A program made the translations under genes and the position numbers. Source: Synechococcus sp. CBW1108 (GTDB taxonomy: Bacteria > Cyanobacteriota > Cyanobacteriia > PCC-6307 > Cyanobiaceae). Taken from it: a DNA stretch of 64,000 bases. The stretch covers positions 2,145,277 through 2,209,276 of the forward strand of contig NZ_CP060395.1 of NCBI RefSeq assembly GCF_015840335.1. Direction: 5' to 3'. Position 1 is the first letter of the stretch. Each line of letters begins with the position of its first letter. Shown here piece by piece: positions 12,298-32,710 of this stretch. The notes under the pieces were generated by a model. That model searched no databases, was not told the origin of the DNA, and worked only from the letters and a program-made list of their open reading frames with translations.

Positions 12298-12382
12298 GGA
12301 GAGGTGGCTGAGTGGTCGAAAGCGAACGACTCGAAATCGTTTGAAGGGAAACCTTCCGTGGGTTCGAATCCCACCCTCTCCG
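12298..12382 (+). tRNA. tRNA-Ser (CGA)
   Basis: An 85-nt class II tRNA. The acceptor stem GGAGAGG pairs with CCTCTCC, followed by discriminator G. The anticodon stem AACGA/TCGTT encloses loop CTCGAAA with anticodon CGA. A long variable arm and the T loop GGTTCGAATCC are visible. CCA is not encoded. The last 19 bases (from 12364) begin the 47-bp repeat that bounds the downstream island, so the tRNA is the integration site and stays intact. Confidence 0.96.
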
Positions 12383-12410
12383 CTTTTGACAAATCTTGAG
12401 ACGGTTCAGA
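12364..12410 (+). repeat. attL: left copy of the 47-bp direct repeat
   Basis: The sequence from TCGAATCCCACCCTCTCCGC to ACGGTTCAGA is identical over 47 bp to 36636-36682. It contains the 3' 19 nt of tRNA-Ser plus 28 bp of flank. Identical repeats in the same orientation, one at a tRNA 3' end beside an integrase gene, mark attachment sites of an integrated element. Confidence 0.93.
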
Positions 12411-12507
12411 TCGTCCGCAATTGTCTCATTGACTGGGTTTCTGGGTTGGTCGCTGTCTCATGAGGGCGCCACCGATGCCATCAGATCCAGATTTTTTATG
12501 GGAGAGA

Positions 12508-12558
12508 TTATGTGAGATGAAAAGCGGTTTTATGTGAGATAGAATCGTTATGTGAGAT
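12508..12558 (+). promoter_or_regulatory. Three TTATGTGAGAT repeats, putative integrase arm sites (left)
   Basis: Perfect copies of TTATGTGAGAT lie at 12508-12518, 12530-12540 and 12548-12558, spaced 22 and 18 bp apart, between attL and the integrase start. Related copies occur just inside attR. Such repeats are typical arm-type binding sites for tyrosine integrases. The third copy sits 11 bp before the chosen integrase ATG, so Int binding there would also repress its own gene. Function is inferred. Confidence 0.7.
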
Positions 12559-12569
12559 GGGTCTTGGGG

Positions 12570-13892
12570 ATGTCCAAACCGCTGACTGACGCTCAAATCC
12601 GCGCTTTGCCTGCCATTCCCAAGGGAGGTAAAAAAACCTCGGATCCCTGCGGAAACGGTTTGCGTATCGTCAACGAACCAGTGGTCGGCAACGTCCCTTG
12701 CAGGCGATTCGTCCACCCATACTCCCAAAAACTACCGAATGGCGTCCGCAAGCAACAGGAACTGCCCCTCGGCACCTACGGCAAAGGAGGAGGGCGTCTG
12801 ACGCTGGTACAAGCGCGTCAGAAGGTGCAAGCGTTCAAGGAATGGCGCAAAGGAATTGGACTGGATGCCCACCACGATCAGTGGTTGGCGCTGAACCGTC
12901 CAAAAGACACGCTTTCTGCTCCGACTCTCAAGCAAGTTTGCGATGCCTGGTTGACGTCACCCTCACGACAAAAAAAAGCGCCGAGCACTCAGAAAGAGTG
13001 CCAGCGCCATCTTGAAAATCATGTCTTTCCAGTTCTTTCTCCTGATCTTCCCATCAAGGAGTTGGAATGGGATTCAGGCGATGGCACTGGTGGAAGACAA
13101 TTCGTTGAGAAGGTGCGCAAAATCATTGACGCAAGGAAGTCTCATGACATGGCGAATCGTGTCATCAGGACTTTGGGGCAAGTTTGCGACTATGCCATTG
13201 AAAAGGGTTGGATGCGGAGGGGGCAAAATCCCTGCACGATTTCACCTGATGATCGCGCTCAGCATGTCCCCAAAGGAAATCCGACAATTACTGCCGAAGA
13301 GGTTCCAGGATTTTTTCAGAAATTATGTGGGTATGGGGATGGTCAGTTTGATCTTGTTCCTACGGCACTGAAGTTGCATCTGCTGCTATGCACACGACCT
13401 GGAGCACTCGTCGCTCTGGAATGGTCTTGGATAGACGAAACGGATTCTCTGATTACGATCCCTGGTGCTACCCCAGGTCTAAAGCGTCCATCCGACCAGA
13501 AACATGTTGATCATCTGATTCCAATCTCTGATGCCGCTAAAGAAATCTTTGATCTACTCAAAAAAGTCAATGGCAAAAGAAAGCACCTGCTTCATAGTCC
13601 AAGAGGTAGAAAGGAATCTCACATCACTCCTTCTGCATTGAATAATTTCTTGAAGGATCAACTGCAAATGGGCGGGATCCTGACAGCACAGGGTTGGAGA
13701 GCGGTTGTGCAAACAGTGGGACAGGATTTATTGGGGTATCAGTGGGAAGTTCCTGATCGACAGTTAGGTCACCTTCATCACAAGAAAGGTGTTCGCGGTC
13801 ACTACGATAATTCTGAACTGCTGGATAAGAGGCGGGAGTTTATGGAAGATTGGTCAAACTGGTGTATTAAGCAAGGACTCGCTATACCGTGA
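12570..13892 (+). CDS. int: Tyrosine recombinase/integrase of the island
   Basis: A 440-residue P4-like integrase. The N-terminal DUF4102-type domain reads LTDAQIRALPAIPKGGKKTSDPCGNGLRI. A central SAM-like core-binding domain (about residues 115-215) is followed by the catalytic domain. Catalytic residues visible are Arg in LLLCTRPGALVALEW, Arg in QGWRAVVQT, His in RQLGHLHHKKG and the nucleophile Tyr in VRGHYDNSEL. The position before the second Arg, usually His (HGFR), is Gln (QGWR). The ATG at 12570 is preferred over the GTG at 12552 because it gives the family's usual MSKPLTDA start. It lies beside attL and should catalyse integration at tRNA-Ser. Confidence 0.93.
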   Translation: MSKPLTDAQIRALPAIPKGGKKTSDPCGNGLRIVNEPVVGNVPCRRFVHPYSQKLPNGVRKQQELPLGTYGKGGGRLTLVQARQKVQAFKEWRKGIGLDAHHDQWLALNRPKDTLSAPTLKQVCDAWLTSPSRQKKAPSTQKECQRHLENHVFPVLSPDLPIKELEWDSGDGTGGRQFVEKVRKIIDARKSHDMANRVIRTLGQVCDYAIEKGWMRRGQNPCTISPDDRAQHVPKGNPTITAEEVPGFFQKLCGYGDGQFDLVPTALKLHLLLCTRPGALVALEWSWIDETDSLITIPGATPGLKRPSDQKHVDHLIPISDAAKEIFDLLKKVNGKRKHLLHSPRGRKESHITPSALNNFLKDQLQMGGILTAQGWRAVVQTVGQDLLGYQWEVPDRQLGHLHHKKGVRGHYDNSELLDKRREFMEDWSNWCIKQGLAIP

Positions 13893-21268: not shown

Positions 21269-21688
21269 TCATCCCCACAACTCCAACCCAAGACCTGCCA
21301 ACGCTGCCGCCCTCCTCAAGCAAGAGGAAGCGGCAACCTCAGCAGCAGGTGCCTTGGATGCCGACTCCAGCGGTTCTGATGCCACCGCTGAGTAGTGGAG
21401 CAGGTCTCCATCTGCGGTAGGGATGGTCAAACGCCCCGTGACTACAACGGCACCGCCAACCTCCTGAACCGACTGAACCTCCCAACACCAACCAGGGGCA
21501 CGGTGGTGAAGGTGACGGGCAATGGTGTTCCAAGGGCAGTAGGTCAGGGTCGCGGTTCCCTGCTTCCTGGTCTTGAGGTGCCGAGGGTCAATGGGACGAG
21601 ACAGATCTGCCAGCGTTTCGGCAGTAGGTCGCAAGGAAAACTTGATGGCAGTGGTTGCCTGAGTGCCGTTGTTGGATGTCTTGAGCAT
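21269..21688 (-). CDS. Rad52/22-like single-strand annealing protein
   Basis: A 139-residue protein. The block CPWNTIARHLHHRAPGWCWE, then GAVVVTGRLTIPTADGDLLHYSAVASEPLESASKAPAAEVAASSCLRRAAALAGLGLELW, matches the Rad52/22 annealing fold: an aromatic/APGW loop, a GRLTIP strand, and the AESxxLRRAAxxxGLG helix. Such proteins anneal complementary single strands and are common in phages and mobile islands. First gene of a minus-strand operon; TATAAT on the minus strand near 21725 and CACAGAGG before the ATG serve as promoter and ribosome binding site. Short compared with full Rad52, typical for the mobile-element type. Confidence 0.72.
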   Translation of the reverse strand: MLKTSNNGTQATTAIKFSLRPTAETLADLSRPIDPRHLKTRKQGTATLTYCPWNTIARHLHHRAPGWCWEVQSVQEVGGAVVVTGRLTIPTADGDLLHYSAVASEPLESASKAPAAEVAASSCLRRAAALAGLGLELWG

Positions 21689-21773
21689 TTGATTGACCCT
21701 CTGTGGAGTTCAGTGAGTAAATTATAGTGCTTAATGCTGCTGGTGTGAAGTTATGTGCTCTGCGCCCTGACGC

Positions 21774-22067
21774 TTGAGTAGGTTTGGTTCCGCTTGGTCG
21801 CTCTGCCTGGAGAACTCCTCGCCGCCACTCCTGGATGCTCTGGATCACCTCTGTCACTTGGTAGAAGGTGATCCAGAGTTTGAGAAGGAGTTCTATGCCG
21901 CCTCAACGCCTGATGAGATGGTCACCCTGGCAGTGGATGGCGGCATCTTGATTGACGCAGATGATTTCCGTGCTCTGCTGAGAAGCGGCAGCACTGAGTT
22001 TTGGTTGGTTCGTGGTGAGGAGAGTGCCAATCCCATCGCCCACCTACAGCAGGTCTTTAGCGTCTGA
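21774..22067 (+). CDS. Nif11-like domain protein
   Basis: A 97-residue protein. The segment LDALDHLCHLVEGDPEFEKEFYAASTPDEMVTLAVDGGILIDADDF fits the Nif11 pattern (Phe-rich helix, then Dx-L..., then D.E.V.LA...G..I..DD). Nif11 domains occur in cyanobacterial natural-product leader peptides and as small stand-alone proteins. No GG cleavage motif or short core peptide follows, and no maturase lies nearby, so a leader role is doubtful. It starts at a TTG. Divergent from the Rad52-like operon. Confidence 0.6.
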   Translation: MSRFGSAWSLCLENSSPPLLDALDHLCHLVEGDPEFEKEFYAASTPDEMVTLAVDGGILIDADDFRALLRSGSTEFWLVRGEESANPIAHLQQVFSV

Positions 22068-22498
22068 TGCTGGAGGGGGAGTATCAGGTCTCCTGTGTCA
22101 AACACAGATATGTGCTCACCAGTGGTTGTGCTCTCCCATCCCGTTGTGCCTGACCCTGAAGACCCTTGATGGCATCACGAACTTCTGGGTTGTATTCCCA
22201 ACTAGTTCTTGATCGTTGCTTGAGGACCCAACCACCAGGGGCACGAACACCAAAGCGTAGTTCAGCATCGCCAAAGGTGGTCAGTAGTTCGGCGTCAATT
22301 ACCTGCCTTTCCTGCTCCAGGGTCTTGATGGTGCCTGTGACCTCCACCCGCCGCTGAATCAGTTGGTCGGCATTGAGGTCTGCCAGATGCGGGTATGGGT
22401 CTTGTCCGCCGACAATGAAGTTGGCCGGTCGGCGACAAGCTCGTTGGCCGGTGGGGTGAGTGCTGGAGACCCTGGTGCCGATGCGCAGGGACCAGGTG

Positions 22499-24097
22499 AT
22501 GCCGGCACCACTGACAAGCCACCAACGCAATCTGTTCATGACGAAACGACGAGGCGGCAGCAGCCAGGAGGCTGCTGCCGCGGCGGCGGGCATCTCAGTG
22601 CGCAGTGCTCGCCGGATTGAATGCAATCAGCTGCAGCCGCGGGCGAACCAGCCCCGTGGCCGCACCCGCCCCGATCCGCTGGTAGGGGTATGGGAGGAGG
22701 AGCTGGTGCCGTTGCTGCAGCGCTCACCCGCGCTGACGCCGATCACGCTCCTGGAGCATCTGCAGCAGCAGAAACCTGATGTGGACTGGATTCCGCTACA
22801 GCGCACCCTGCAGCGCCGGGTGCGGGAGTGGAAGGCACTGCACGGCCCGGCGCCGGAGGTGATCTTCCCTTTGAGCTATGAGCCTGGCGAAATTGCCTTC
22901 TGTGACTTCACCCAGCTCAAGGGGGTGGAGGTGACGATCGCCGGCCAGGTGTTCCCCCATCTGCTGTTCCACTACCGCCTGGCCTGGAGCGGCTGGAGCT
23001 ATGCGCAGGTGGTCCAGGGCGGCGAGAGTTTTGCAGCCCTCTCCGAGGGTCTGCAGAACGCTCTGGCTGCCTGCGGCGGGGTGCCAGGTGAACTGCGCAC
23101 CGACCGGTTATCAGCAGCGTGCCGTAACCGCAACGGCAGTTTCAGCTCCGACATCACCCGCCGTTATCACGCCCTCTGCAGCCACTACAGCCTGGCCTAC
23201 AGCCGCAACAACCTGGGGGTGGCGCATGAGAACGGCCGTGTGGAGAGTCCCCATGGCCATCTCAAGCGGCGGATCGAGCAGGCGTTGCTGCTGCGCGGCA
23301 GCAGTGATTTCGAGTCGCTGGCTGAATACCAGGCTTTTCTGGCCGCGGTGATTGACCAGTACAACAGGCCGCGCCTGATCCGGCTGGAGCAGGAGCAGGC
23401 GGCGCTGCGGCCACTACCGCGGTTTCGTTTTGCCGACTACGACATTGAACAGCTCACGGTGCGGCGCACCAGCACGATCGAGGTACGCAGAGTCGTGTAT
23501 TCGGTGCCGCCGCGGCTGATCGACCAGCGGCTGACGGTGCGGATCTTCCACGACCGGCTGCAGCTGCTTCTGGGCCGGCAGATCGCCTGCGAACTGGAGC
23601 GGCGCCACGGCGGTGTCGAGCGTCATGGGCGGGCGTGGAGCATCGATCTGGAGCACCTGATCGATGCGCTCAGGCGAAAACCCCGGGCATTGCTGCACTG
23701 CAGTTACCAGCGGGAGCTGTTCCCCGATGAGCGCTGGTGGCAGCTGTGGCAGCAGCTGCGCAATGGCGGTGACCGTGACGCCGCCGCCCGATTGATGGTC
23801 GAGGCGCTGTATGTGGGCTGCCGCCTGGCGGGCTACGAGCCAGTGCTGGTTTGGCTCGAGAAGGCCCATCAACGGCAGGGGCTGTCGCTGGCGGCGCTGC
23901 AGCAACGCTTCCGGCTGCCGCCCCATCGCCCCCACCCGCCGCAACGCATTTCCCAACACACGCTGCAGAGCTATGACGACCTCCTTGCCCTCCATCCCGC
24001 GGCCCCAGGCGGCGGAAGCCGCCCTGCCGATCCTGCTGCGACAGCTGCGGTTGGCATGGATCCGCTGCCACTGGCAGAGCATCGCCTCGCAGGCTGA
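22499..24097 (+). CDS. istA: IS21 transposase IstA
   Basis: About 532 residues. The N-terminal helix-turn-helix reads QEAAAAAAGISVRSARRIE. The DDE integrase-core domain has Asp in IAFCDFTQLKG, Asp in LRTDRLSAA and Glu in NNLGVAHENGRVESPHGHLK. The ATG at 22499 (MPAPLTSHQ) is preferred to a GTG at 22460, because the DNA before it is terminal-repeat sequence of the IS. It overlaps the start of istB by 125 bp in another frame. It looks intact. Confidence 0.9.
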   Translation: MPAPLTSHQRNLFMTKRRGGSSQEAAAAAAGISVRSARRIECNQLQPRANQPRGRTRPDPLVGVWEEELVPLLQRSPALTPITLLEHLQQQKPDVDWIPLQRTLQRRVREWKALHGPAPEVIFPLSYEPGEIAFCDFTQLKGVEVTIAGQVFPHLLFHYRLAWSGWSYAQVVQGGESFAALSEGLQNALAACGGVPGELRTDRLSAACRNRNGSFSSDITRRYHALCSHYSLAYSRNNLGVAHENGRVESPHGHLKRRIEQALLLRGSSDFESLAEYQAFLAAVIDQYNRPRLIRLEQEQAALRPLPRFRFADYDIEQLTVRRTSTIEVRRVVYSVPPRLIDQRLTVRIFHDRLQLLLGRQIACELERRHGGVERHGRAWSIDLEHLIDALRRKPRALLHCSYQRELFPDERWWQLWQQLRNGGDRDAAARLMVEALYVGCRLAGYEPVLVWLEKAHQRQGLSLAALQQRFRLPPHRPHPPQRISQHTLQSYDDLLALHPAAPGGGSRPADPAATAAVGMDPLPLAEHRLAG

Positions 24098-24764
24098 GGG
24101 CGAGGGCTGGAGCCCCAGTCAGTTTCTCTATGCCCTGTGCGAGCAGGAAATGGAGCAACGCCAGCAGGCCCGCCAGCACCGGCTGCTGCGCGCGGCCCAG
24201 CTGCCCTGGAGCAAAGCGCTGGCGGACTACGACCATGGCGGCCGGATCGAGGCGCACCGATGGCAGGAACTGGAGGCCTTGAGCCGCCAGAGCGAGTGGC
24301 TGCAGCGGGGCGAGAACGTGCTGCTGTTCGGCCCCAGCGGTGTGGGCAAGACGCACCTGGCGGTCGGCATCGCCTTGGCGCAGATCGGCCTGGATCAGGC
24401 CTGCCGCTTCTATCCCGCCACGAGCCTGGTGCAGGAGCTGCAGAAGGCCCGCGCCGAATACAACCTGCCGGCAGCGCTGGAGCGGCTGGATCGCTACCCG
24501 CTGCTGCTGATCGATGACATTGGCTATGTGCGGCGGGATGAACAGGAGAGCAGCGTGCTGTTTGAGCTGATCTGCCACCGCTACGAGCGCCGATCGCTGC
24601 TGATCACCGCCAATCAGCCGTTCACCGCCTGGGATGAGATCTTCCCCAGCAGCTCAATGACCGTGGCGGCGGTGGACCGGCTGGTGCACCACTGCCACAT
24701 CGTCGAGATCAGCGGCGACAGCCACCGCCGCGCCCAAGCAAGCCGGCGCAGCGGCAGCAAATAG
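23973..24764 (+). CDS. istB: IS21 helper ATPase IstB
   Basis: A 263-residue AAA+ ATPase. Walker A GPSGVGKTHL and Walker B YPLLLIDDIGYV are clear, with the sensor residue in LLITANQPFTAWDEIF. IstB assists IstA in target capture and transposition. It starts at the ATG at 23973 inside the 3' part of istA, the usual IS21 arrangement. It looks intact. Confidence 0.92.
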   Translation: MTTSLPSIPRPQAAEAALPILLRQLRLAWIRCHWQSIASQAEGEGWSPSQFLYALCEQEMEQRQQARQHRLLRAAQLPWSKALADYDHGGRIEAHRWQELEALSRQSEWLQRGENVLLFGPSGVGKTHLAVGIALAQIGLDQACRFYPATSLVQELQKARAEYNLPAALERLDRYPLLLIDDIGYVRRDEQESSVLFELICHRYERRSLLITANQPFTAWDEIFPSSSMTVAAVDRLVHHCHIVEISGDSHRRAQASRRSGSK

Positions 24765-24840
24765 CCACAGCAGCCGTAGAGAAGCGGAGAACAGCCCGGG
24801 AGATTGTCGTCCGGCGACAACCTGGTGCCGATGGTGCCAG

Positions 24841-25134
24841 ACCCCGGCGGGGAGCTCCGCGCTGCCGGCGGACTGTGCGGTCCGCCGGCTCGTGCGCTCC
24901 AGGGCAAGGCTCAGCAGAGGTCTCGGCGCCTAACCGGCCAACGTGGTTGTCGCCTGGTGCCGATCAGAGGAAGTCAGTGCTGGCAATGGCTCGGACTGAT
25001 GTGTGGCTCAGTTTTCGTGTCGCCTCCAGCGTCATCGCCCCCCAGTTGTCGCCGGCGACAACTGGGGGGCGATCAGTTCCCCTCACCGGCCAACTTGATT
25101 GACGCCAATCGGCCAAGGGGGTTGACGCGGGACA
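24841..25134. repeat. IS21 right-end segment, repeated at 42991-43284
   Basis: 294 bp identical to 42991-43284. It contains a 10-bp perfect stem (24864-24873 with 24880-24889) and, at 25034-25073, a 40-bp perfect palindrome centred on GTCGC/GCGAC. It ends with the terminal bases GGGACA of the IS. At the second location it is flanked by its own 6-bp duplication, so it has moved on its own. Confidence 0.9.
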
Positions 25135-25204
25135 GGGTCTGGTGCCTCTGGTGGCAGGGTCTTGAGAACCCGCTGAAGATCAGATGGGGAGATTGGTTGA
25201 GTCA

Positions 25205-25396
25205 TCAGTCATTTTTGATTGCGCCCTCATTCACCAATCGGTTGTAGTGACACTGGATGGCGTCCTCCACGATTGAGGAGAGGGTGATGGGTTGATTGGT
25301 GCGCTGGCGGAAATGCTGGATATGGGAAACCAGTTTCATCGTCTCTTCACTGAGGCGGATGCCGAACTGCTTTGGAGCATCGGGATGGTCGTTCAT
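25205..25396 (-). CDS. Ribbon-helix-helix-like DNA-binding protein
   Basis: A 63-residue protein: KQFGIRLSEETMKLVSHIQH then FRQRTNQPITLSSIVEDAIQ. A beta strand (FGIRL) followed by two helices fits a CopG/Arc-type fold, as found in antitoxins and plasmid repressors. The ATG at 25396 (MNDHPDAPK) is chosen; a longer frame begins at 25456 with a hydrophobic stretch that overlaps the leader module. Its stop overlaps the ATG of the split 127-codon gene (TGATG), so the two formed an operon. Confidence 0.6.
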   Translation of the reverse strand: MNDHPDAPKQFGIRLSEETMKLVSHIQHFRQRTNQPITLSSIVEDAIQCHYNRLVNEGAIKND

Positions 25397-25472
25397 TGCT
25401 GCTGAAGCGAGTGGTTTGAGTGTGGCAGGGGATTCCGCCAGCACCAGCAGGAACAAGGAAGCGCATCGGATT

Positions 25473-25577
25473 GAACCTCTGTGGGTTTCTGGGAAAAGGG
25501 TTGGAGGGGCGAACTGCTATGAGTTTCTTGCCCCTCAACACTGGAATTATAGCGCCAAAGCAGCAGGATGTGGTGCC
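25473..25577 (-). promoter_or_regulatory. Leader module copy 2 (promoter, hairpin and ribosome binding site)
   Basis: On the minus strand: a conserved CACTTGGCAC, TATAAT (plus-strand 25546-25551), a hairpin with arms GAGGGGC/GCCCCTC (25530-25536 and 25504-25510), then CCAGAAACCCACAGAGGTTC. The same order occurs upstream of the 115-residue gene (25943-26052). It leads into the ribbon-helix-helix gene; an alternative ATG at 25469 lies just after the AGAGG and opens a different frame. Confidence 0.65.
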
Positions 25578-25593
25578 AAGTGCTGAAAAGTCA

Positions 25594-25941
25594 TCAAACC
25601 GCAACCAGTTCAGGCACCTCCTGTGCTGCCGCCACCTCCAGAGCAACCGCATCCAGCACCTGATCGGCAACTGAGCGGTGAGTGGTGTGGGTCAGGTCGC
25701 CAAAGCGGGCATTGAGTGCCTTGGAGAACAGATTCGTGAACTCGGTGCTGATCGTGGTGGAAAGCAGGTCAGCAGCAAACGCCCAGTGCTTGACCATCAC
25801 AGCATTGGTGAGGTTGCCGTCGGTAGCGAGATCAGAAGATTTTTGCTCCCACTCACATACCTTGTGGCGGATGGAGGCAACGATGACCTCGTGAGCGGCG
25901 TTGATGGTGCCCAGGTCAATGGCGGAGAAGTCGGTCGGCAT
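25594..25941 (-). CDS. Hypothetical protein downstream of leader module copy 1
   Basis: A 115-residue helical protein: MPTDFSAIDLGTINAAHEVI, SDLATDGNLTNAVMVKHWAF, then SKALNARFGDLTHTTHRSVA. No family recognised. The ATG at 25941 is preceded by AGAGG at good spacing within leader module copy 1. It lies upstream of, and in the same orientation as, the ribbon-helix-helix gene. Its expression is probably co-regulated with it because both have the same type of leader. Confidence 0.6.
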   Translation of the reverse strand: MPTDFSAIDLGTINAAHEVIVASIRHKVCEWEQKSSDLATDGNLTNAVMVKHWAFAADLLSTTISTEFTNLFSKALNARFGDLTHTTHRSVADQVLDAVALEVAAAQEVPELVAV

Positions 25942-25942
25942 T

Positions 25943-26052
25943 TGGAACCTCTGTGGGTTTCTGGAGTGGGTTGAGAGGGCGGGTTTCTAATGAACCTCTT
26001 GCCCTCAGCACTGAAATCATAGCACAGGGGACTGAGCATAGTGTGCCAAGTG
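25943..26052 (-). promoter_or_regulatory. Leader module copy 1 (promoter, hairpin and ribosome binding site)
   Basis: Minus-strand order: CACTTGGCAC, TATGAT, hairpin arms GAGGGC/GCCCTC (26001-26006 and 25975-25980), then CCAGAAACCCACAGAGGTTCC before the ATG at 25941. Compared with copy 2, one arm has lost a G and the other the matching C, so pairing is kept. This suggests a selected RNA or DNA structure. Confidence 0.65.
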
Positions 26053-26116
26053 CTTTTAGATTGCGGAATGTTCCATTTGGTTCTGCTGTGCTTCCTGCCT
26101 CACGCCTCTCTTTAGG

Positions 26117-26132
26117 TTTGCTTTAGAAATGG
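26117..26132 (+). promoter_or_regulatory. Conserved motif before a 29-codon gene (copy 1)
   Basis: TTTGCTTTAGAAATGG occurs here, 20 bp before the ATG at 26152, and again at 38249-38264 before the paralogous small gene. The two are otherwise in different surroundings, so the motif probably belongs to the small-gene unit. Confidence 0.5.
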
Positions 26133-26151
26133 GGTGTTAAGCGGAGTCGTT

Positions 26152-26241
26152 ATGGTTACAACTGGTTTTCCATCGCTTCTTGCCTTGGTCGCTCTGGTGG
26201 GGTTTGTCGTGGTGGAAGCAGTGCTTATGTTTGGCGCCTAA
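26152..26241 (+). CDS. 29-residue single-pass membrane peptide (copy 1)
   Basis: MVTTGFPSLLALVALVGFVV, then VEAVLMFGA: nearly all hydrophobic, a single membrane span. It aligns over its full length with a 29-residue peptide at 38284-38373 (shared PSLLA, ALVGFV and AVL), and both share an upstream motif. Length and pattern resemble small membrane toxins or complex-stabilising peptides, but no function is known. The conservation of two copies argues that it is a real gene. Confidence 0.55.
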   Translation: MVTTGFPSLLALVALVGFVVVEAVLMFGA

Positions 26242-26326
26242 CGCTCTGCTCTCTGTGTCAGGCACGAGAGCATAGGCAGCAAGCACTGCTTTGCCCTTTC
26301 ATGGTGCTTGAGGTATTGTGCACCTT

Positions 26327-26578
26327 ATGGCAAAGCAAGTTCGTCTGACACTCGCCAAAGCACTCGCCAAGGCAAATCTGCACCGTGCGGAGGCAGGTGA
26401 GAAGGCAATCACAATGAACTCGCTGGCAGTGGCGGCAGGCGTGGCAGCGACCACCATCACCCGACTGGCACGGAACGATCACAAGGCGGCATCAGCACTT
26501 TCCTTGGATTTGGCGGGGAAGATCGTGACGGTGCTGGATTGTGGGATTGAGGATTTATTGGAAGTTGTAGAGGCGTAG
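26327..26578 (+). CDS. HTH-type (Cro/C1-like) regulator
   Basis: An 83-residue helix-turn-helix protein: MNSLAVAAGVAATTITRLAR, then LSLDLAGKIVTVLDCGIEDL. It matches the small XRE-type repressors where AxxAGVxxxTIxRLxR is the recognition unit and DLLEV the end. The ATG at 26327 (MAKQVRLTL) is chosen over 26318. It is convergent with the end of hsdR (8 bp apart). It may control restriction-modification or island genes. Confidence 0.82.
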   Translation: MAKQVRLTLAKALAKANLHRAEAGEKAITMNSLAVAAGVAATTITRLARNDHKAASALSLDLAGKIVTVLDCGIEDLLEVVEA

Positions 26579-27155
26579 TGCCCGTTCAGAATTGCTTTTC
26601 CAAAGCATCGGCAACAACCGCCTGAATCTTGTTCCCCAAATCCTCTTTCGACCACTCCTCAGAAATCATCTCGGTCTGCTGGAGCACCAAGTCAATCGCT
26701 GCTGCCTCCTGATCAGGCGGATACTTGTAGCGTTTGAGCAGTGCCTTAATCGTCGTTCGCAGTCGTGCCCGAACGTTCTCTTTGTATTGCCAGTCGATGC
26801 TGAGGTTGCCCCTGAGTTTTTCTGCCAGTTCCCGTGCCATCTTCATCAGCACCTTATCGCCCATCAGATCGTGTGCTGACTGGTTGTTCGCCAGGGCGTC
26901 GTAGAAGGCAACCTCAGCAACCGACAACCCCATCGCCGCCACTTTTTCTGCTTCATCACGGAACTGCTTTGCCATCGCAATCAGTTCCTCAATCACCTGT
27001 GCCGCTTCAATCGAACGGTTGGCGTATTTGTTCAGGGATGCCTGGAGCAGTTCACTAAATCGCTTCTGCTTCACCACATTGGTCTTGAAGCGGGTCTGAA
27101 CCTCTTCCCTCAGCAACGGTGACTTTCAGGAAAGTTGTCACTCCTTGGCTGCCAT

Positions 27156-28256
27156 TCAGGCGGCCTTGATTAAGGGTAGCGCCAGGACCGGATCGGGCTC
27201 TTCTGTTGGCTTGTTTATCCACACTTCTGCCGGTTGATTCCAGCAGCGGGTGGCACCGCTCCAGCGCGTTGGATTGGCACGGCGGGCGGCCTCGTAGACA
27301 TCAGTGCGCTGCTGGCAAATTGCCGCGGCAGCCCCACTGTGGCGCTGGTGGGGCGTCACGAATTTGATCGCGCTGTGGTGGTGCCGGTGGTTGTACCAAT
27401 CCACAAATGCTGCCACCCATTCACAGGCCTCGCCCTTGCTGGCAAAGGGCCGGCTCGGGTAATCAGGCCGGTATTTGACCGTACGGAACAGGGATTCCGA
27501 GTACGGGTTGTCGTTTGAGACCCTTGGCCGGGAGAAGGATCTGAGCACGCCCATCTCCTCGAGCCGTGATTCCAGCGTGGCCCCACGCATTGCATTGCCG
27601 TTGTCGGCGTGGAGTATTAGGGGCTGCTGCTGGCACTGGCGGCTGCCAAAGCCGCTGGGGCGGTGGTAGCGCTCCTTGAGGCAGGCCCGCTGCACCAGAT
27701 CCGCTGCGATCTGGGCCGATTCCACCTCGGCCACATCCCATGCCACCACTTTGCGGCTCCAGACATCGACCACCAAATAGAGGTAGAGCCACACACCTCG
27801 CACCGTGGTCGGCAGAAAGGTGATGTCCCAGCTCCAAACCTGGTTCGGGCCATCCGCCCTGAGGCGCGGCACCGAGCGCGGTTCTTGAGGCAGCCTGGCC
27901 CTCCCCCGGCGGTGGCACTGACCCGCCTGGTGCAGCACCCGATAGAAGCTGCTCTCTGAAGCAATAAAGAGCTTTTGATCGGACAGTGCCGGCACGATCT
28001 GCCCTGGCGGCAGCGCGGCGTACTCCGGCTGGTTGCACGTCAGCAGGATTCGCTGGCGCTCTTCCTCGCTCAGGCGGTGACCCACCAGGCGAGCACTGCC
28101 TTTACGGCGATCCACGCCGTCCCCATCACCCAGGAAGGCTTTCCGCCAGCGTTTGAGGGTGCGCAGGCAGATGCCGATCACACCACAGGCCCTCACCAGG
28201 CCGGCGCCCGCAGCATTGGCCTCCCCGATCAGCTCGATCACCTTCCGCCGGTGCAC
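27156..28256 (-). CDS. IS3 transposase OrfB (integrase core), copy 1
   Basis: About 366 residues from a GTG at 28256 (VHRRKVIELIGEA). The DDE core shows Asp in NQVWSWDITFLPT, Asp in LILHADNGNAM and Glu in NPYSESLFRTVKYRP. It lies in the -1 frame relative to orfA. A run of seven A residues (28302-28308 on the coding strand) near the end of orfA is a likely slippery site that fuses the two as OrfAB. Confidence 0.9.
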   Translation of the reverse strand: MHRRKVIELIGEANAAGAGLVRACGVIGICLRTLKRWRKAFLGDGDGVDRRKGSARLVGHRLSEEERQRILLTCNQPEYAALPPGQIVPALSDQKLFIASESSFYRVLHQAGQCHRRGRARLPQEPRSVPRLRADGPNQVWSWDITFLPTTVRGVWLYLYLVVDVWSRKVVAWDVAEVESAQIAADLVQRACLKERYHRPSGFGSRQCQQQPLILHADNGNAMRGATLESRLEEMGVLRSFSRPRVSNDNPYSESLFRTVKYRPDYPSRPFASKGEACEWVAAFVDWYNHRHHHSAIKFVTPHQRHSGAAAAICQQRTDVYEAARRANPTRWSGATRCWNQPAEVWINKPTEEPDPVLALPLIKAA

Positions 28257-28264
28257 GGCGCTGG

Positions 28265-28771
28265 TCAGCCTTCCGCGTCCTCCGAACAGAAGGCATCCCA
28301 CTTTTTTTGCAGCACCAGCAAAGCCGCCATCTCCGCCATGGCCTTCTCCTTGCGCTGCAGCTCCTTTTTTAGGGCTTTGATCTCCCGCTGGTCCTGGGCG
28401 CGGAGCTTCTCGAGCTCCTTCTGTTCGGCCATCGTCAGCACCGGCTTGGCGTTGGCATCCTGGGCCGCCTGCCGCCAACGGCTCACCTGCTCAGGGAACA
28501 GGCCCCGCTCGCGGCAGTAGGCGCTGAGTTCGGTGGCATTGAGCCCGGCGCTTTCCAGCACCACCGTGAACTTGTCGGCGGCGTTCCAGCCCTCTGGTTC
28601 CTTCTCGGATGCCGGCACCACCTCTCCCTGCAACCGCCAGGCCTTCCTCCATTTGTAGAGGGTCATCACGTGGATGCCCAGCTCCTCTGAAATCCGGGCA
28701 ACGCTCTGCCTGTGGGGCGGGTGCATCCGTCTCCTCACATCAGCCTTAACGGCCTCGCTGTATCGGCGCAT
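28265..28771 (-). CDS. IS3 transposase OrfA, copy 1
   Basis: A 168-residue protein with an N-terminal helix-turn-helix (VARISEELGIHVMTLYKWRK), a second one (LNATELSAYCRERGLFPEQVSRWRQ) and a leucine-zipper-like helix (LEKLRAQDQREIKALKKELQ) as in IS3 OrfA proteins. The ATG at 28771 follows the left end by 65 bp. It ends in SEDAEG; copy 2 ends SEEEEG. Confidence 0.88.
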   Translation of the reverse strand: MRRYSEAVKADVRRRMHPPHRQSVARISEELGIHVMTLYKWRKAWRLQGEVVPASEKEPEGWNAADKFTVVLESAGLNATELSAYCRERGLFPEQVSRWRQAAQDANAKPVLTMAEQKELEKLRAQDQREIKALKKELQRKEKAMAEMAALLVLQKKWDAFCSEDAEG

Positions 28772-31474
28772 TGGTCATGTCCTCAAGCCCCCGGATGGAT
28801 GGATCAAAGGGGTGACATCTTTCCTGAAACCGGGGGAACCGCTGGAGCAGTTCAACCGCCAGGTTCTTCTGGGGGATCTTGCTGACCTCTGCCAAAAACT
28901 GATCCGACAGGATGCTGAGATCAGGTTTTTGTAGACCTGCGACCTTGAAGACATCAGTGATTCCATCTGCCACCAGGGCATCAGACATTAGTTGCCGCAA
29001 CTGAAAATCAACATTCTTGGGGGCACCACCATCACCGCCATCTGTGCCATCACCTTTGACCAGTGGTGCTCGGATCGCCTGAAGGAAAGTCACCTCATCA
29101 TTGAGCGCCATCGCTTCATCAAGCGTTCCGCACAGGGCAAATGCTTTGGTCATCGCCAGCACGGTGTCGCAATACCGCTGCTTGCCATCTGGTAGTTCAA
29201 GGATGTGATCCAGGCAGTTGGGCAGAAGTGCCATTGCTGTCTTGGGATCCCTGAACCCACTCCAATCAATCGGGTGGAGCAGGTCACGGGCAACCTGGAG
29301 TTTCTCTTTGAGGATCCGCACCGCCTCACTGGTGTCGATGGTCGGAAGACCTTTGCCCTTCGATGCGGTGTAGGTCGCCAGTGCTTCCTTGAGTTGAGGT
29401 GCGATGCCGATGTAATCGACCACCAGACCGCCGGGTTTGTCTTTGAAGACCCTGTTGACTCGGGCAATCGCCTGCGCCAGGTTTGCCCCCTTCATCGGTT
29501 TATCCACATACATCGTCGCCAGACAGGGAGCGTCAAACCCCGTCAACCACATATCCCGCACCAGCACGATCTTGAGCGGGTCGGCAGGATCCTTGAACCG
29601 TTTCTCCAGATCTTTCTTCTGCTGCTTGGTGGTGTGGTGGGGTTGGAGATATTGCTCATCCGATGCCGATGCCGTCATCACCACCTTGATGGCACCTTTT
29701 TTGGGGTCGTCATCGTGCCAGTCAGGGCGCAGGGCAACGATTGCCTCATAGAGGCGGGCACAGATATCTCTGCTCATCGCCACCACCATCGCCTTGCCTG
29801 GTTGGGTGCGTGAGCGTTGCTCAAAGTGGGCAATCAAATCTGCTGCCACTTGCTGTAGGCGTGGTTCAGCGCCCACCAGTGCTTCCAGTGCTGCCCACCT
29901 GCTCTTTGCCCGTTCAGCAGCAGGAATGTCGTCTTCATCTGAGAAGAGTTCATTCACCTGCTCATCCACCTGGGGGAGCAGTGGTTCCTTGAGCGCCAGT
30001 TTTGCCAGGCGGGATTCGTAGTAGATCGGCACCGTGGCACCGTCTTCCACTGCCTGCTGAATGTCGTAGACGGAGACGTAGTGCCCGAAGACCGCCTGGG
30101 TGTCACGGTCGTCTTGGGAGATAGGTGTTCCCGTGAACGCAAGGAAGGTCGCCTGGGGCAGGGCATCTCTGAGTGCCTTTGCCAACCCGTATTTGATCTC
30201 CCCTGTCTTGGTGTCGAAGCGACCCTTGAACCCGTATTGGGTGCGGTGCGCTTCGTCGCAGATCACCACGACGTTGTGGCGGTCGGTGAGGGCAGGGAAC
30301 TTGTCTTCTTCAGGGTCGGTGGCGAACTTCTGAATGGTGGTGAAGATGATGCCGCCACTGGGTCGGTTGCCCAGTAGTTCCCTGAGTTCTTGGCGACTGT
30401 CTGCCTGCTTAGGGGGTTCACCCAATAGGTCACCCGCCCCAGCAAAGACCCCGAACAGTTGACCATCCAGGTCTTGGCGGTCTGTGACCATCACCAGGGT
30501 CGGATTCTCCAGGCGTGGATCGGTGAGCAACTTGCCCGCCAGACACGCCATCTCAATGCTCTTGCCAGCACCTTGGGTGTGCCAGACCACCCCGCCCTTC
30601 TTATCGCCGTCAGGTTTGCTTGCTTCCACCACCCGCTCCACTGCTGCTTGAACGGCGTGGAACTGGTGGTAGGCAGCGATCTTTTTGATGATCTGCCCGT
30701 CTTCCTCAAACAGACAGAAGGAGCGGATGAAATCCAGAAGACGCCCCTTGTCGAACATCCCTCGCACCAAGGTCTCCAGATCACGGTGAGCACCCAGTGG
30801 ATCGAGGTCGTTCTCCCCTGAGATCGTGCGCCACCGCAGGAATCGCTCTCGATCAGCAGTCAGCGAACCGACCCGTGCCTGGATGCCATCGCTGATCACC
30901 AGCAGCACATTGGGCGTGAAGAGGTCTGGGATGTCTTGCTTGTAGGTCTGGAGTTGGTTGAACGCCGCCCAGATGTCTGCTTTCTCATCGGCAGGGTTCT
31001 TCAGTTCGATCACTGCCAGGGGCAAACCGTTCAGGTAGACCACCACATCAGGGCGGCGGTTGTGCTTGCTGCCCTGGATCGCCAACTGGTTCACCACCAA
31101 CCAGTCGTTGGAGGCAGAGTCGTCGAATCCGATGACCTTGAGACGGATGCCAACCTGCTGGTTCCCATCCATATAGGTGATGGGCAAACCCTGGGTCATC
31201 CAGCGGTGGAACTGACGGTTGGATGCCAGCAGACCAGGCACGTTGGGATTCGCCAGTTGGAGCACCGCTGACTCGATGGTGCTCTCTGGAACTTCTGGGT
31301 TCAGGCGCTGGAGTGCTGAACGGAGTCGCCCAGTGAGGATGACCTGCCTGAAGTCGGTGCGTTCTGGGGAGGTGCCGTCGCTATCGAGTTGGGGGGCGAA
31401 GACGTGGGTGTATCCCAGTTCCGTGAACCACTCACAGCACTGCTGCTCCAGATGGTCTTCTGTGATAAGTGCCA

Positions 31475-32710
31475 TCAGACCCCAACCTCCTCAATCATCC
31501 GCTGGGCATCGGGGATTCGGATTTCACCTGAGATGAGTTTGGGGAGGAGGGCGTCTCGTATGGAAGAGAGACGAACCGAATATTCGCAACCCATCTTTAT
31601 ACGTTCAATGAGTGAATAAAACTGAATGTCAAACTCCTTCAGCAAGCGTGGCGTAGGTATGGCGATTGGGAACTCGCACATATCCCCCCAACTTGTTCTC
31701 GGCATCCTGGTTCCTGTGGATGCTGCGACCGTGAAATCAATAAATGGGTCACTTGCCAATAAGCAACAGATAAAACCAGTGCCACTGTCTCCCTTCTTCC
31801 TTGTGACAACGATGTCTGTGGAGCACACTCCATCAAACTGAGCGTAACCTGTCTTTTTGAAATATGGTCGCAGTTTCCCGTAGAGAATATCGCCTTCTCT
31901 GAATCTATTCTTGTTACTCTCCAGTTCCTCTGCTTCCCCTGACTCGCCAAGGCAAATGCTGCCTCGGGGCATATGCTCTAATCCTATATAGCGATCAGTT
32001 GAATCCATCTCGCCTGGTTTCGCTGTTTCTCTGGGATTTAGTGCGACCTCGTCAAGTGAACCAGTTCTCCATCCACTCGGTATCTCACCCAGTTCTGAAT
32101 CTTCAAATGAATCAGGGAATAGATCGCTGATTTCTGCTGGCAATCCAGTGGATCGACCTTCTGCCTTTGCTCTGACTGAATCGAAATCCACAAACCACGA
32201 CTTGAAGAGCGCCTTTGCCATCGCCTCCAAGGTTTCGTTGGTCTTGCGGTTGAGTTCGATCTTGCCGTCAAGGGTGCCGAGGATATGGGCGATTGCCGTG
32301 CGCTCTTCAGGATTTGAGTGCCAAAATATTTCCTTCTTGTTCAAGTGCCCCATCGTTATCTGGGGTTGCGCTGAACCAGTCGTTACATCAGTAAAATCTG
32401 TATTAAGTAGCGAGTAATAGAGATACTTGCTTGACTGTTGACTCTGACTGGGGAGAACTATCGCCATTGCGTTATTTGAAATATGCGCCCTGCCACCAGA
32501 CCACTGAACAAGACCGCATCCATTGCCTCTACAGGTCACCAGCGGTTGTGCTTCTTCGTATGTAGCATTCTGGGTATACCCTAAGATTCCATTGGCACCC
32601 CAGACGGGCACTTTTGAGTGCTCAGTCGGTCTTTCGCTGAGTTCATTTGGTGATGTATAGCGACCTTGTTTGATCTGGGCAATCTTCTCAATCTGTCTAA
32701 GTTCACTCAT
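31475..32710 (-). CDS. hsdS: Type I restriction-modification specificity subunit HsdS
   Basis: A 411-residue protein with two target-recognition domains, each followed by a conserved helix: [42 protein letters not shown] in the middle, and [17 protein letters not shown] near the C-terminus. HsdS decides the DNA sequence recognised. It overlaps hsdM by 8 bp and touches hsdR (TGA/ATG), a classic single operon. It appears intact; with HsdM it could still methylate DNA. Confidence 0.93.

Follow-up and report, generated by a model that had tools for sequence, protein, structure and literature searches.

A small mobile recombination gene cassette of Synechococcus sp. CBW1108 and other picocyanobacteria carries, in the leaders of its genes A, B and D, what is probably a protein-binding RNA hairpin serving as a translational operator, as judged from comparison with the leaders of its relatives. 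The hairpin takes a 17-nt form, comprising a G, one bulged base, four base pairs, the loop CAN(1-3)AG(A/C) and a closing C, and occurs twice per leader, as P2 atop a long stem (P1) and as P3 over the ribosome-binding site, with a single P3 before D. A conserved hairpin overlapping the ribosome site, a covarying stem and a conserved loop, as expected of such an operator, were all found among 49 P3 (17 before A, 16 before B and 16 before D) and 26 P2 hairpins collected from 20 loci. Coordinates refer to the window, the whole 64,000-nucleotide stretch of contig NZ_CP060395.1 that was analysed.

Table 1. Leaders, hairpins and genes of the cassette in the window
Feature	Position	Strand	Remarks
Leader of gene A	25942..26026	-	extended -10 (hexamer 26021-26016), P1/P2, P3; R1 87.0 bits (R1 training row); aligned with 28 others
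CACTTGGCAC, copy A	26052-26043	-	
P1 arms, leader A	26006-26001 and 25980-25975	-	GAGGGC/GCCCTC
P2, leader A	25981..25998	-	G-A-GGUU-CAUUAGA-AACC-C atop P1; motif scan, covariation
CCAGAAACCCACAGAGGTTC box, copy A	25964-25945	-	
P3, leader A	25945..25961	-	G-A-AACC-CACAGA-GGUU-C; overlaps Shine-Dalgarno GAGG; 3 nt to AUG of A
Leader of gene B	25470..25556	-	-10 TATAAT (25551-25546), P1/P2, P3; R1 102.3 bits (R1 training row)
CACTTGGCAC, copy B	25582-25573	-	
P1 arms, leader B	25536-25530 and 25510-25504	-	GAGGGGC/GCCCCTC
P2, leader B	25511..25527	-	G-A-AACU-CAUAGC-AGUU-C atop P1; motif scan, covariation
CCAGAAACCCACAGAGGTTC box, copy B	25492-25473	-	
P3, leader B	25473..25489	-	G-A-AACC-CACAGA-GGUU-C; 6 nt to ATG at 25466
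Leader of gene D	21692..21752	-	P3 only; TATAAT 21726-21721; R1 18.0 bits, E 0.014
P3, leader D	21711-21695	-	GAACTCCACAGAGGGTC; G-A-ACUC-CACAGA-GGGU-C, fully paired; 6 nt to ATG of D
Gene A	25594..25941	-	115 aa, MPTDF...; predicted helical hairpin, no known family
Gene B	25205..25396	-	KQFGIRLSEETM...; start codon chosen by us; ribbon-helix-helix-like by eye only
Small ORF	25347..25466	-	MRFLVPAGAGG...; starts right 3' of leader B P3, overlaps B start in another frame
Gene C, main part	22090..22401	-	first 26 codons at 25128-25205; tblastn
Gene D	21269..21688	-	Sak/DUF1071-type single-strand annealing protein; PF06378 E 0.0068, below cut-off (weak)
Cro/C1-type HTH gene	26318..26578	+	divergent, cassette head; PF13443 E 7.1e-07
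Nif11-like ORF	21774..22067	+	within cassette, absent from some relatives; synteny

An earlier note on this DNA had described two copies of about 105 bp before adjacent minus-strand genes, and both could be located at 25473-26052 on the minus strand, upstream of the short genes A and B, alignable across about 105 bp and spaced 470 bp apart. Each consists, in order, of a -10 box, the long hairpin, a short linker and the CCAGAAACCCACAGAGGTTC box, with a start codon close behind. The order of -10 box, hairpin and CCAGAAACCCACAGAGGTTC agrees with that note, but CACTTGGCAC, which it placed first in the module, is only loosely kept in other genomes, and with one mismatch allowed it occurs five times in the window against 5.92 expected by chance, which is no excess. 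By eye, many leaders have, about 22 bp 5' of the A and B -10 boxes, a loosely kept element AGCRYNNNRCRC, which in the window reads CACTTGGCAC and is possibly a DNA site for the HTH protein. The 20-mer CCAGAAACCCACAGAGGTTC, with up to three mismatches, matches twice in the window against a shuffle mean of 0.01, with no further site across the 3.2-Mb genome of the strain. The hairpin that tops the long stem and the one in the CCAGAAACCCACAGAGGTTC box look to be the same, a point that had been overlooked. Copy A has an extended -10 (TGC-TATGAT) and copy B a plain TATAAT with no TG ahead; a two-hexamer sigma-70 promoter match was not found within 25400-26400. The long hairpin appears to begin a few bases past the inferred transcript start. 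Folded as single sequences, the two window leaders show no unusual stability (z -0.19 and -0.94).

The cassette, conserved at the related loci that were read, comprises the divergent Cro/C1-type HTH gene, A, B, C, often an opposite-strand Nif11-like ORF, and then D. Protein A is modelled as two long helices (mean pLDDT 79.6), and comparison against the PDB gave no fold match at E <= 0.001 and no convincing sequence match (best E 0.23); no function is therefore inferred for it. A ribbon-helix-helix identity for B found no confirmation in Pfam, Foldseek or PDB sequence searches, and a binder of this type, as suggested in the earlier note, has no support. The small ORF behind leader B P3 encodes 19-42 aa among the relatives and is replaced by another short gene in one G005 cassette, G203 and G143 (GTG start); translational coupling is possible. 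Gene C is split in the window by the insertion of an ORF pair (22460-24764), IS21-like by eye. The D proteins of the cassettes match Pfam at E 0.0057-0.0068, below the cut-off, and their distant plasmid relatives are mostly annotated as DUF1071. Matches of the Nif11-like ORF of the L076 relative (Pfam E 0.035, NCBIfam E 0.0016) are likewise below cut-off. Among A to D, D is the most basic protein (pI 8.96), A is acidic and B and C are near neutral, with the HTH protein at 8.75. A second copy of the cassette occurs in the same genome (G000:C1:1849039-1861131; L085, L102, L103), with a decayed A and P2 and with a D leader about 11 kb away.

Around the cassette, a type I restriction HsdR-like gene (26586-31475, minus strand) is seemingly split, with its C-terminal domain at 26586-27116 (PF11867, E 1.3e-58) and its main part, by eye, at 28746-31475, the two pieces being parted by a transposase that reads as IS3-like. 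A perfect palindrome of 20+20 bp with no spacer lies at 25034-25073, amid related inverted repeats (24802-25055). At 12298-13892 a tRNA-Ser(CGA) stands ahead of an integrase of phage type (PF22022, E 5.1e-09), and the pair likely marks an edge of the island.

The P1 stems of the two window leaders differ by one pair, which the earlier note had read as a compensating change. Pairing is indeed kept, but one G and one C were gained or lost jointly, without base substitution, and since the extra G/C pair tracks leader type in twenty leaders, it is by this comparison an old difference between the A and B types and not a compensating substitution; as evidence for selection the stem change is weak. 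Mean identities among ten A and ten B leaders are 0.85 (A-A), 0.90 (B-B) and 0.70 (A-B), with the window copies at 0.76 to each other. The window A leader is 0.72-0.91 identical to the nine other A leaders, with one below 0.76, and is nearer to them than to window B in 8/9 cases, and the window B leader is 0.83-0.99 identical to the nine other B leaders and nearer to these in 9/9. Where A-type genes of G122 and G325 possess the long hairpin, its stem is of the four-G form. That the leaders are a recent simple duplication without function, as two similar copies 470 bp apart might suggest, is thus scarcely credible, being refuted by this cross-genome comparison, in which the two types are distinct in ten leaders each, and opposed by the strong covariation of the hairpins.

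Among the 75 hairpins collected, eleven distinct four-pair stems could be distinguished (distinct stems being counted, not independent events, and one hairpin with an N excluded), in which 44/44 pairs are standard, against a mean of 31.0 when the arms are shuffled. Shuffles pairing equally well numbered 0 of 20,000 for the combined set, 13 of 20,000 for P3 alone and 55 of 20,000 for P2 alone. Two false hits, L079:10385-10403 and a second register of the L035 D leader, were removed before the count. The search pattern fixed the loop and closing bases and left the pairing free, and the constancy of the loop is thus partly a product of selection by the pattern. The stems before D include ACUC/GAGU, ACUC/GGGU, AACC/GGUU, AAUC/GAUU and GACU/AGUC, and the D leader of G255 has AUCC/GGAU where its congener G045 has AACC/GGUU. 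In stems changed to GAUU or AGUC, the Shine-Dalgarno sequence is poorer by eye, with pairing retained. The common loop, its length variation and the bulge are found in both P2 and P3, even though P2 plays no part at a Shine-Dalgarno sequence. That loop and bulge are fixed and one-sided, while the stem varies freely and yet stays paired, suggests recognition as RNA.

Leaders with the long hairpin number 29 and derive from 13 genomes of six genera, always upstream of the same two genes, A and B; two decayed copies of the host genome (L071) and one of G005 (L021) are included, and none was dropped after collection. Of the 567 cells in their alignment, 93.1% pair, whereas shuffles reach 87.5% and slid versions no more than 57.6%. 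Double changes in the named structure amount to 45 against 16.2 in shuffles, and the covariation score is 0.241 against 0.138, a value reached by 0/500 shuffles, although these controls leave the relatedness of the 29 leaders in. Further pair types show no excess (16 against 17.6 in shuffles). Changes on both sides are seen at 4/5 pairs of P2 and 2/5 pairs of P3. P1 is weaker (87.7% paired), partly as a result of MAFFT misplacing the three-G and four-G arms. Without a supplied structure, RNAalifold recovers P2, P3 and the upper part of P1. The 29 leaders and the strong covariation of P2 and P3 support the selected RNA or operator structure before island genes proposed in the earlier note, and they contradict the outcome that it had named as refuting, two copies only and no covariation.

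P3 is present in 17/21 matches of A; those without it are contig 50 of G001, where P2 and P3 are deleted and A has an internal stop, the fragments of G004 and G209, and the distant G124 and G191. Likewise, 16/22 of the D places read have P3, and it is absent from the truncated L042, the partial homologies L082 and L083, and the distant G124, G191 and G287. The D relatives of these last three are 53-59% identical and have no hairpin; in G124 and G191 the hairpin is likewise missing before A. The pattern, and with it the count of 49 P3, did not take in two B leaders, that of G325, whose paired hairpin (AACC/GGUU) has a loop of nine bases, and that of G164, which has an A-U closing pair. A P2 matching the pattern is absent from 7/33 A and B leaders, two of them decayed and five natural, namely the G122 B leader and four A leaders with P3 only and neither P1 nor P2 (G143, G140, G045 and the first A copy of G325). 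The B leaders of G122 (L077:9700-9735) and G325 (L081:10185-10215) have no P1/P2 and show another, G/C-rich hairpin (GGAGGGG.../...CCCCTCC), which sits directly after gene A. An alternative pairing between the arms of P2 and P3 suits some leaders and, by eye, fails with a P3 of AUCC/GGAU or a P2 of AAUC/GAUU, and was rejected.

In 19 loci (361,487 bases) the paired motif has 59 matches, 52 of them within cassette leaders, with three for a permuted-loop control. The P3 pattern occurs at eight places in the strain's own genome, five of which are cassette leaders; by eye, none of the remaining three stands before a start, two lying at the end of a transposase-like frame and one within apparent coding sequence. 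When the pattern was relaxed to a looser 17-mer, this genome had 151 matches against 75 for the reversed pattern, and among the matches listed, four of the 90 distinct 17-mers checked are fully paired, two of these being cassette copies; within that listed set a host regulon was rejected. The model of the full leader, R1, matches 19/400 genomes of the family, its 29 strong matches being its own 29 training rows and therefore no new evidence. Six weak extra matches have E values of 7e-7 to 5e-4; four (G268, G146, G124 and G231) precede apparent remnants of A, B or the small ORF, that of G406 adjoins the HTH gene, and that of G307 has no identified gene. Among 291 genomes of the class, four were matched, all from the host's family. 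R1 searches of more than 40 genomes used stricter filters, under which weak matches are lost. The weaker version that the earlier note saw before the Rad52-like gene (D) is found by this leader-built model (Table 1). Against Rfam 15, the whole window gave only tRNA and SRP RNA at the gathering threshold, and 25400-26100 gave no match at E up to 10, so that the leader was not assigned to any Rfam family. In the open-licence literature searched, no paper was recognised as treating this motif.

The CCAGAAACCCACAGAGGTTC box, with up to three mismatches, is found in 31/119 genomes including the strain's own, many of these matches being isolated and probably due to chance; close matches in the host's genus are often paired about 475 bp apart (G005 twice, G010, G012 and G015). 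Gene A occurs in 17/300 and gene C in 21/300 genomes of the family, fragments counted. Relatives of D are encoded in Synechococcus sp. CS-1330, CS-1331, 8F6 and Cruz CV12-2, as well as in Cyanobium usitatum Tous, Cyanobium sp. CH-040 and two MAGs, the motif scan covering all but Tous. A phage origin of the cassette was rejected, no relative of A, B or D being found in IMG/VR viral contigs, and none of B or D in phage records. Distant D relatives are present in nine plasmid records, and a hairpin motif scan of three of these plasmids found nothing. In two PLSDB records, L143 (NC_010479.1) and L145 (NZ_CP016475.1), a 171-bp ORF before the DUF1071 gene is labelled 'ACT-82 beta-lactamase, 100% identity', which looks like an annotation artefact.

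We propose that the hairpin is a cassette-shared translational operator over the Shine-Dalgarno sequences of A, B and D, read by a putative protein that would recognise the loop and bulge. On the ribosome-site copy, P3, the protein would block the ribosome, and the upstream copy, P2, which in most A and B transcripts would lie close to the inferred 5' end, may be its first landing site, from which bound protein would help to load P3. Control would thus take the form of repression by free protein. This protein is probably a product of the cassette itself, because in the strain's own genome the P3 pattern was seen ahead of start codons only in cassette copies, and since the three genes with sites, A, B and D, belong to a single cassette, a cassette protein is the likely reader of the hairpin. 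As a first guess this could be the annealing protein D, with C and B next, because D is of a nucleic-acid-binding type, its own gene carries the operator and there is a precedent in T4 gp32 and gp43; its high basicity was also counted in its favour, and its relatives with 53-59% identity but no hairpin were counted against it. By eye, it is C that tracks the motif most closely in its distribution.

It is unlikely that the hairpin acts alone, with no dedicated protein, by protecting the 5' end of the mRNA or by half closing the ribosome site in the manner of a thermometer. Only a few bases would separate the long hairpin from the inferred start of the transcript, and P3 is short and overlaps the Shine-Dalgarno sequence, but neither role requires a common loop and bulge in P2 and P3, which are kept while the stems vary. 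As the loop is kept at P2, where there is no ribosome site, a protein reader is preferred. Imperfect palindromes in DNA, bound by the divergent HTH protein or by protein B, would likewise change symmetrically, their half-sites co-changing, and an HTH gene stands divergently at the head of most cassettes. The repeats are nonetheless quite improbable as DNA operators: such palindromes should have conserved half-sites around a free spacer, whereas here the half-sites vary and the spacer is nearly fixed and asymmetric, the orientation is constant, the extra base lies 5' in every case, and the arms of P2 and P3 within one leader differ or are reversed (GGUU/AACC above AACC/GGUU). The near-fixed loop, drifting arms, same-side extra base and reversed arms thus point to RNA rather than DNA. 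Furthermore, the HTH protein, named in the earlier note as a candidate binder, has no support, its gene not being found in the 20-kb G045 locus, which retains the hairpins.

Two mostly hexaloop hairpins in one leader also recall the ANTAR-type antitermination element, bound by a dimer, which in the account of PMC3369931 drawn on here has two hexaloop hairpins with A1 and G4, the second competing with a terminator. This explanation is very remote and was discarded on the loop positions and the absent terminator: the cassette loop, C-A-N-A-G-A/C, has its A and G at positions 2 and 5 and not 1 and 4, and a simple consensus scan found no terminator-like site in 25400-26400. Moreover, the 16 motif-bearing D leaders have one hairpin only, and the cassette proteins scanned gave no ANTAR match. 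A PF03861 (ANTAR) search of the strain's own genome found no match, but since its control matched nowhere either, this does not count against an ANTAR protein.

The protein-read operator preferred here is likened in its working to the translational operators of phages and is not placed in any named family. Among the coat-protein operators of RNA phages (PP7, MS2), that of PP7 presents a hexaloop on an upper stem of 4 bp, with an A bulged out 5', a geometry with which the cassette hairpin agrees, but the loop sequences differ; no coat-protein-like gene was seen in the cassette in Pfam, PHROGs, PADLOC and NCBIfam scans. CsrA/Rsm proteins read a loop-presented motif (GGA) in a Shine-Dalgarno hairpin, with several sites per leader, whereas the cassette loop CAN(1-3)AG(A/C) contains no GGA. 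According to PMC3014915 and PMC535899, the T4 replication and recombination proteins gp43 and gp32 bind structured RNA at or just 5' of their own ribosome site, and the gp43 operator hairpin has key loop bases. Each of these proteins acts on its own mRNA, whereas the cassette hairpin recurs before three genes and is doubled in most A and B leaders. T4 RegA, according to PMC3014915, is one protein acting at the ribosome sites of several genes that belong to one element, but its sites have no RNA structure, whereas those of the cassette are conserved hairpins.

There is a minor chance that one loop and bulge hairpin code on three genes, read by the annealing protein of the cassette, makes up a post-transcriptional regulon of its own, in which free annealing protein would turn the cassette off once single-stranded DNA has run out. 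If so, it would be a further case beside T4 gp32 of the synthesis of a recombination protein following free single-stranded DNA. To our knowledge, protein-read RNA operators come mainly from phages and ribosomal-protein operons. The motif would provide a ready probe for its RNA-binding protein, and adds to the known structured RNAs one without a match in Rfam 15, a probable cyanobacterial cassette operator repeated on three genes.
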